From Truepera radiovictrix DSM 17093 (GTDB taxonomy: Bacteria > Deinococcota > Deinococci > Deinococcales > Trueperaceae), in NCBI RefSeq assembly GCF_000092425.1, contig NC_014221.1, positions 2,981,001 to 3,045,000 on the forward strand: a stretch of DNA of 64,000 bases. The letters run 5' to 3'. Shown here piece after piece: positions 3,542-5,628 of the stretch. Numbering within the stretch: the first letter of the stretch is position 1; every line of letters begins with the position of its first letter. Position numbers and translations under genes: made by a program. Under the pieces are notes generated by a model. The model was not told the DNA's origin. It worked only from the letters and a program-made list of their open reading frames with translations, and made no database searches.

Positions 3542-3582
3542 AGAGCGCGCCGGGGATGCCCGGCGCGCTCTGCAACGTTTTT
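3542..3582. terminator. Bidirectional rho-independent terminator
   Basis: A perfect 13-bp stem (3542-3554 with 3559-3571) with a GATG loop. Reading rightwards a T5 run follows at 3578-3582; reading leftwards a T4 run follows directly (AAAA at 3535-3538). It lies between the convergent hisG and MTGGD-repeat genes and can serve both. Confidence 0.85.
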
Positions 3583-3631: not shown

Positions 3632-3934
3632 TTAGTTGCCGTCGTTCCCCTCTTCCATGTCCATCATGTCCATGCCGAGGTCGCCGCCGGTCATGAGGCC
3701 GCGGTCGAGCAGCACCTGCACGTCGCCGCCCGTCATGATCCCCATGGCGATCGCCTGCTGCACGTCGCCACCGGTCATGGTGCCCGCCTCGACGGCCGCG
3801 ATGACGTCACCACCGGTCATCATGGCCATGTCCATCATGCCGCCCGTCATCGTGCCGGTCTCTTGCTGCGTGGTCGCCGCAGCGCCGAGAGCGAGGAAAA
3901 GACCGATCACCAACAGCAGAGCAACTTTTTTCAT
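3632..3934 (-). CDS. Small secreted protein with MTGGD tandem repeats
   Basis: A 100-residue protein, not recognised as a named family. Residues 1-20 form a signal peptide (MKK, then a long hydrophobic core ending AAA). The rest carries MTGG at residues 29, 39, 53, 67 and 81; the last three intervals are exactly 14 residues, each unit reading MTGGD-V-x-x-x-h-x-x-G-h. The segment 'VQVLLDRGLMTGGDL' resembles one turn of a SHOCT-like helical hairpin, so an array of short capped helices is possible. It is very rich in Met and Asp (MMDMAMM, MDMMDME), which could bind soft metals. The start has a GGGGGAAG ribosome site. Exported to the cell surface or periplasm; function unknown. Confidence 0.8.
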   Translation of the reverse strand: MKKVALLLVIGLFLALGAAATTQQETGTMTGGMMDMAMMTGGDVIAAVEAGTMTGGDVQQAIAMGIMTGGDVQVLLDRGLMTGGDLGMDMMDMEEGNDGN

Positions 3935-4311
3935 GCTTCCCCCTACGTGAGATGAAGTTCGCGCATGTCGAGCGGTTCAACGAACGCGCCCCCTGCGCAC
4001 AAGGGTGAACGCCCGTCCTACAGCCGCCACGATACTAAGGGCGACGCCCGACCATATGTCGGGTCGGCCACAATTCTAGCACGGCTGCGCTCCGGGCGTA
4101 AGGGGTAGCCCTGGCAAAAGCCTGTGAGTTTATGCGCTGCAGTATAGCCAAAACAGGCATGTGTGACTGTGACGCCTGATAACCATGTTGACGGTGATGT
4201 GCATCGCCTAGCCTCTACGGGGGCGCGGCGGCGCGCCCCTCAAGCTCCCCACGAGGGCGTAGAACACCCCCACCAACCGCCCTTTCATAAAGAAGCAGGT
4301 ACAGTGGGGTC
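3935..4311. promoter_or_regulatory. 377-bp divergent intergenic region with palindrome and fadA -10
   Basis: Separates the divergent MTGGD-repeat gene and fadA. It holds an inverted repeat CCCGAC-CATAT-GTCGGG at 4047-4063, a possible operator, and a -10 box TACAGT at 4300-4305 that lies 6 nt before the fadA ATG. No open frame of note is seen. Confidence 0.45.
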
Positions 4312-5628
4312 ATGACCAAGGTTTCTCAACCCTCACGGGAGCGCCGCGTCGTGCTCGTCGACGGCGTGCGCACCCCCTTCATGCGCTCCGGTACGGCCTA
4401 CCTGGGGCTCACCACCTACGACCTGGCGCGGCTTGCGCTAAAGGGCCTGTTGGCCCGCAACGCCCTCGACCCGGAAGCGGTCGGTTACGTCGTCATGGGG
4501 ACGGTGGTGCAAAACGTCGCGACGAGCAACGTGGCGCGCGACGCCGCCCTCGGGGCCGGCTTTTCGCACCGCGTACCCGCCCACACGGTGACGATGGCCT
4601 GCATCTCGGCCAACCAAGCGGTGACGAGCGCCGCCGAGGCGATCCGCTCGGGGGCGGCCGATATCGCCGTTGCGGGGGGCGTCGAGATGCTCTCCGACGT
4701 GCCGCCGCAGTTTCCCTTGGAGGTGCGTAAACGCCTCTTTGAAGCGCAGCGCTACGCTTCGCCGCTGGACTACCGCAAGCTTTTCGCCGGTATGTCGCCC
4801 TCAGATTTGCTGCCGCGGGCGCCCAAGGTCGCGGAGTACTCGACGGGCGAAACCATGGGTGAGAGCGCCGACAAGCTCGCCGCGAGCTTTGGCGTCACGC
4901 GCGAGGAGCAAGACGCCTACGCCCTGCGCTCGCACCAGCTCGCCGCTAAAGCCACCGGCGACGGCATCTTGCGCGACGAGATCCTGCCGACTGCCACCCC
5001 CCCCACGTTCGACCTGCACACCCGCGACAACACCGTGCGCGCCGACTCGAGCCTTGAAAAGCTCGCCGCGCTCAAACCCGTTTTCGTCAAACCCTTCGGT
5101 ACCGTCACCGCGGGCAACTCGTCGCCGCTGACCGACGGCGCCTCGGCGGTGCTCCTCATGGAGGAGGAGACGGCGATCGCGCTCGGCTACACCCCCAAAG
5201 CGCGCCTCGGACACTACACCTACGTCGCGCAAGACCCCGGCGAGGAGCTCCTCTTGGGTCCCGCCTACGCCACCCCCAAGGTGCTCGAGCAAGCGGGGGT
5301 GACGCTCCGCGAGGTCGACGTCATCGAAATCCACGAGGCCTTTGCCGGGCAGGTGCTGGCGGTGCTGCGCGCGCTGGAGTCCGACACCTTCGGCCGCGAG
5401 CGCTTGGGCCGCAGCGGCCGCGTCGGCGACGTCGACCTGGACAGGCTCAACCGCTGGGGTGGGTCGCTCTCGCTCGGCCACCCGTTCGGCGCCACCGGGA
5501 CGCGGCTGCTGACGACCGCCGCCCACCGCCTCGAGGCCGAAGACGGCACCCTGGCGCTCGTCACGGCGTGCGCCGCCGGGGGGCTCGGCCACGCGATGCT
5601 GGTAGAACGTTTTGAAGGGAGAGCGTGA
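4312..5628 (+). CDS. fadI: Acetyl-CoA C-acyltransferase (3-ketoacyl-CoA thiolase)
   Basis: A 438-residue thiolase, long like FadI/trifunctional-beta types. The nucleophile Cys sits in 'VTMACISANQAVTSA' near residue 103. The other active-site blocks are 'IHEAFAGQ' (His), 'GGSLSLGHPFGATG' (His) and 'TACAAGGLGHAMLVE' (Cys). It performs the last thiolytic step of beta-oxidation. It overlaps the next gene, the hydratase/dehydrogenase, by one base (TGATG), so both subunits are likely made together as a trifunctional complex. FadA rather than FadI naming is possible. Leaderless start after TACAGT. Confidence 0.93.
   Translation: MTKVSQPSRERRVVLVDGVRTPFMRSGTAYLGLTTYDLARLALKGLLARNALDPEAVGYVVMGTVVQNVATSNVARDAALGAGFSHRVPAHTVTMACISANQAVTSAAEAIRSGAADIAVAGGVEMLSDVPPQFPLEVRKRLFEAQRYASPLDYRKLFAGMSPSDLLPRAPKVAEYSTGETMGESADKLAASFGVTREEQDAYALRSHQLAAKATGDGILRDEILPTATPPTFDLHTRDNTVRADSSLEKLAALKPVFVKPFGTVTAGNSSPLTDGASAVLLMEEETAIALGYTPKARLGHYTYVAQDPGEELLLGPAYATPKVLEQAGVTLREVDVIEIHEAFAGQVLAVLRALESDTFGRERLGRSGRVGDVDLDRLNRWGGSLSLGHPFGATGTRLLTTAAHRLEAEDGTLALVTACAAGGLGHAMLVERFEGRA

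Follow-up and report, generated by a model that had tools for sequence, protein, structure and literature searches.

Truepera radiovictrix DSM 17093 possesses a chromosome of 3,260,398 bases (PMC3072082), of which a stretch of 64,000 nucleotides (positions 2,981,001-3,045,000; the window) was analysed here. Near one end of the window, a small gene on the minus strand encodes a 100-amino-acid precursor (MKKVALLLVIGLFLALGAAATTQQETGTMTGGMMDMAMMTGGDVIAAVEAGTMTGGDVQQAIAMGIMTGGDVQVLLDRGLMTGGDLGMDMMDMEEGNDGN) that carries a signal peptide followed by a methionine-rich repeat region, and which we refer to as the mini-protein. Its neighbours are a hisG-like ORF and a thiolase-like ORF at 4312, the latter being divergent from it. 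The features of the locus are as follows.

3632..3934, minus strand: gene for the putatively exported MTGG-repeat precursor, with an ATG start and a TAA stop codon (within the coordinates) and with a syntenic orthologue
3875..3934, minus strand: signal peptide, residues 1-20 (MKK, hydrophobic core, AAA), 14 of the 20 residues being common with the orthologue
3692..3820, minus strand: MTGGD units at residues 39, 53 and 67, reaching residue 81, each of 14 residues and with a predicted helix
3935..3945, minus strand: purine-rich ribosome-binding site TAGGGGGAAGC preceding the ATG (TAGGGGGAAAC in the orthologue)
4047..4063, minus strand: inverted repeat CCCGACATATGGTCGGG between the mini-protein and thiolase-like genes (GACATATGGYCGGG also at the orthologous locus)
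4073..4081, minus strand: extended -10-like candidate promoter TGCTAGAAT, read from the sequence (TGCTAACAT in the orthologue)
3542..3571, minus strand: terminator-like hairpin with a 13-bp stem followed by CTATTTTCCC, from a terminator scan

The mini-protein gene probably forms a single-gene unit. No two-hexamer sigma-70 site was found upstream of it, and an Rfam scan of the gene and its flanks returned nothing. The inverted repeat is a possible operator or leader hairpin and might serve either of the two divergent genes; GACATATGGYCGGG, common to both species, was absent from all unrelated loci compared, and CCGACATATGGTCGG has a single exact match within the window. The terminator scan yielded one terminator-like site against 0.7 ± 1.0 in shuffled sequences, a count that is not significant, and the stem of this hairpin is long. 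Both the signal peptide and its cleavage site were judged by eye.

Profile searches of Pfam (E up to 10) matched the mini-protein to none of its families, and searches of NCBIfam and of the PDB sequences gave no relevant match, in agreement with the view of the sequence-only reading that no named family fits. A literature search for the MTGG motif returned nothing relevant, and a peptide-pattern scan of genome contigs brought up no relative of the mini-protein. In 59 further relatives, a protein search turned up no match with an E-value better than 1e-3; these weak matches, which almost always lay within much longer open frames, are taken as chance composition. Likewise, 12 other genomes from the family were scanned over approximately 1.5 kb on the upstream side of their thiolase match, and a simple pattern, which a diverged ORF could escape, found no small exported Met-rich ORF there. 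Among the genomes examined, the mini-protein is restricted to the genus Truepera.

Within the genus, the comparison is with one other Truepera genome (G001), and the family is hence known from two sequences. The syntenic orthologue, MKKFALLLTIGALLAFGAAQTMTGGMTGGMTGGMTGGMMTGGMTGGM (L002 1486-1629, minus strand), is also divergent from a thiolase-like gene, with one phosphoribosyltransferase-like ORF between the two; both names are readings of the sequence. An alignment of the two loci revealed that the ribosome-binding site, the start of the signal peptide, the extended -10-like TGCTA(GA/AC)AT and the element GACATATGG(T/C)CGGG are all kept. The first 20 codons comprise eight that are identical, six with synonymous changes and six with residue changes. 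The mini-protein gene is real, since the syntenic orthologue keeps the ribosome-binding site, the signal peptide and the elements upstream; this supports what the sequence-only reading had held, and the product is a confirmed, genus-restricted small protein.

Translation of the gene bears out the repeat as it had been described, with MTGG starting at residues 29, 39, 53, 67 and 81 behind the signal peptide (intervals of 10, 14, 14 and 14 residues). The accompanying statement that each motif is followed by Asp and a helix ending in Gly holds in part: Asp follows four of the motifs (residue 39 onward) and Met the one at residue 29, while the helix-like stretch ending in Gly belongs only to the units at 39, 53 and 67, the last unit continuing as GMDMMDMEEGNDGN. 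The mature part of 80 residues contains 17 Gly, 14 Met, 10 Thr and 9 Asp, with neither His nor Cys. In 200,000 shuffles of this mature part, the maximum was three MTGG motifs, reached seven times, as compared with the five observed. The three full 14-mers are identical in only 24-29 of 42 bases in pairwise DNA comparison, and Tandem Repeats Finder did not report a 42-bp array; a recent DNA duplication is therefore ruled out, and the 14-mer repeat is either maintained at the protein level or old.

AlphaFold2 models made without an alignment reach a modest confidence, with a mean pLDDT of 67.3 (precursor) and 70.0 (mature form), and they contain the short helices anticipated for the 14-mers. In precursor numbering these lie at residues 41-49, 55-63 and 69-77 (block means of about 77-82); each is 9-10 residues long and begins right behind the Thr of the MTGG motif. 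The sequence T-x-x-D is a helix capping box, in which Met may serve as a hydrophobic staple, and the predicted helix starts would fit such an arrangement. A Foldseek search of the PDB with both models gave no useful match. SHOCT domains had been brought to mind by the sequence-only reading, and the likeness consists of short helices capped by a Thr, with an acidic residue coming next at the turn; the mini-protein differs from them in its predicted export and in its 14-residue repetition, and with no Pfam match at E up to 10 and no useful fold match the comparison finds no support.

The 14-residue plan, too, is not a conserved one. The mature part of the congener's protein consists of 28 residues, eight of which are Met, arranged as a plain MTGGM array. 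The 14-residue frame is thus missing from the only relative, while the MTGG tract is present in it, so that the loss of the frame in relatives, which the sequence-only reading had named as a refutation, is borne out by half; judged from these two sequences, it is the tract that is kept between both species, not the frame or the helices, and on present data the helix-bearing units appear peculiar to T. radiovictrix.

The MTGG string also occurs in other proteins of T. radiovictrix that lay outside the view of the sequence-only reading. With an array taken as a pair of MTGG motifs separated by no more than 31 bases, T. radiovictrix has six such places, G001 has two, and the 109 other Deinococcota genomes examined have none; the reversed pattern, used as a control, scored zero throughout. 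Of single ATGACNGGNGG sites, T. radiovictrix has 42 (the control pattern gives 11), and more than half of them, 22, are located inside the six array genes. For the string to be so concentrated in a single genome is unusual. Lone motifs are uninformative, since ordinary enzymes have a single in-frame MTGG as well. An origin of the string from a DNA repeat or a mobile element was considered and rejected, given that codon use differs and that every one of the six arrays is read in frame within an exported protein.

In the five array-bearing genes other than that of the mini-protein, the MTGG arrays occupy linkers or tails of products that possess a hydrophobic N-terminal export-type segment, again judged by eye. 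Two of these proteins are SurA/PpiC-like (398 amino acids, L064 1963-3159; 664 amino acids, L065 1497-3491), and both display MTGGA arrays and a QTGG(G/A)Q ending. The third, a 273-amino-acid protein with a weak dockerin and matrixin resemblance (L066 2669-3490), has an MTGGA array near its C-terminus. The fourth is an exported protein of 175 amino acids (L067 3243-3770, minus strand) that ends in MTGGEMGVMTGGDMGVMTGGDMDD; its tail is of the type MTGG(E/D)MGV, its orthologue was found only in the congener, and it gives a weak, sub-threshold match to Metal_resist (E 0.038). The fifth, an exported protein of 597 amino acids, has no Pfam match. For the four of these proteins other than the dockerin-like one, the array positions were compared with those of orthologues. 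The congener has PAAPAAP-type text, SASGGAASGGAPSGGAG, GMSGGMGSGG and SSGGAASGGGM at these positions, mostly rich in Ser, Gly, Ala and Pro; in other genera the place is taken by stretches rich in Glu, Pro and Ala or in Thr, Gly and Ser, or it is empty. Most of the MTGG arrays therefore resemble linkers whose text has the flavour of the species. In the mini-protein, by contrast, the array makes up nearly the entire mature protein and joins no domains, and compared with the four other proteins it is apparently the only one in which both species have kept the Met-rich motif whole.

What such a peptide might do can be approached by analogy. The MXKDX proteins (TIGR02953), among them MrpX of Azospira and BcrX of Brucella, share with the mini-protein a very small size, a signal peptide, short tandem Met repeats and the absence of any other domain. 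MrpX is described, in two papers citing the original work, as scavenging hypochlorite through its own oxidation (PMC8315932; PMC5748585). The repeat of the Truepera proteins, MTGG(D/M), differs from MXKDX and is devoid of Lys, and TIGR02953 matched neither the mini-protein (E up to 10) nor the orthologue (E up to 1); an artificial MXKDX sequence, run as a positive control against the same profile library, scored 85.8 bits (cut-off 41). As the best of the readings considered, though possible and short of probable, we tentatively suggest that the mini-protein is a sacrificial-methionine envelope peptide that works like the MXKDX proteins but stands outside their family. It would be exported via its putative Sec signal peptide and reside in the envelope as a cheap and expendable store of methionine thioethers, which would react with oxidants (hypochlorite, peroxides and products of radiolysis) ahead of essential envelope proteins. 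In the T. radiovictrix version, Asp and short amphipathic stretches follow the motifs, so that each Thr could cap a short helix.

This suggestion is favoured because Met makes up 14 of the 80 mature residues in a protein without Cys and His, and 8 of 28 in the orthologue; because the motif is kept here and mostly replaced at the arrays of the four other proteins; because the gene has its own conserved upstream elements; because MXKDX proteins, with the hypochlorite scavenger MrpX among them, are built in the same way; and because the host, strain RQ-24T, withstands ionizing radiation remarkably well (PMC3072082). It is weakened by the lack of an msr gene beside the mini-protein gene and of a recognised MsrP. 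Three PF00174 proteins are encoded by the T. radiovictrix genome, all away from this locus; for two of them the best score is that of a sulfite dehydrogenase, and the third has its best score against MsrP, where its 51 bits lie far below the cut-off of 207, so that no protein among these three matches exceeds the MsrP cut-off. MsrB is present in the genome. In contrast to mrpX, the mini-protein gene also has no adjacent sigma factor gene. It should further be noted that the fatty-acid and histidine neighbours hint at no oxidant stress, that the family comprises only two sequences, and that some Met residues of the T. radiovictrix protein may be helix staples rather than exposed side chains, each of which counts against a sacrificial role. 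Were the methionine sink true, it would represent an MrpX-like strategy arrived at with another repeat in a phylum that resists radiation, and with no recognised MsrP partner.

A somewhat unlikely alternative to this sacrificial role is that the mini-protein is a weakly constrained low-complexity peptide, which retains its signal peptide and promoter while its Gly/Met/Thr text, like that of the species' linkers, has little specific role besides solubility and flexibility. The unconserved 14-residue frame and the change in mature length from 80 to 28 residues fit such a peptide, as do the appearance of the MTGG string in the linkers or tails of five further exported proteins, its exchange for other text in their orthologues, and the independent MTGG arrays in other phyla. 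Yet the gene stands alone with a conserved ribosome-binding site and upstream elements, Met is retained by both species, and MTGGD has been kept across the 14-mers despite their diverged DNA.

We consider it unlikely that the mini-protein is a Cu(I)- or Ag(I)-binding envelope peptide, a role that had been raised from the T. radiovictrix sequence and for which only Met ligands would be possible. Met-only Cu(I) sites exist in other proteins, and the mini-protein offers MM, MxM and MxxM spacings (MMDMAMM, MDMMDM). However, the mature part has no His or Cys, the Met residues of the congener are spaced 4-5 residues apart in a Gly-rich chain, the adjoining genes include no recognised metal gene, and neither Pfam nor NCBIfam gave a match to a metal-protein family.

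It is quite improbable that the mini-protein acts as a free methionine brush, in which a flexible chain of Gly and Met would bind unfolded envelope proteins weakly in the manner of the GroEL tail, whose GGM repeats contact substrates (PMC4379175). In its favour, (GGMT)n resembles these flexible, Gly-Gly-Met-rich repeats, and SurA/PpiC-like (parvulin-type) proteins with the string in their tails account for two of the five other array carriers. Against it, the tails of the SurA/PpiC orthologues in the congener are of Pro/Ala or Ser/Gly type, and the likeness is compositional only, between the tail of a cytoplasmic chaperonin and a stand-alone exported peptide with Thr in every unit and, in T. 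radiovictrix, with Asp and predicted helices. We give equally little credence to a wider proposal in which MTGG would be a genus-specific envelope module, combining the free Met/Gly peptide with the same string in chaperone tails and linkers into a distributed methionine shield or holdase. The common string itself is a clear illustration of convergence, in that exported proteins of a single species, unrelated to each other, have come to use the same linker text.

MTGG arrays likely arise independently in other phyla. In a Nitrososphaerales archaeon, an ORF of 89 amino acids that looks exported (L200 4139-4408) has an NMTGG array, which is likely an independent parallel. As separate observations, a 464-amino-acid protein (L117 1887-3281) bears one MTGGA between its COX4_pro and cytochrome c domains, and a CHRD-domain protein of G001 (L031 3564-4112) has a stretch of its own at the N-terminus, MTGGMMSGGMMTGG (MTGGMMSGG).
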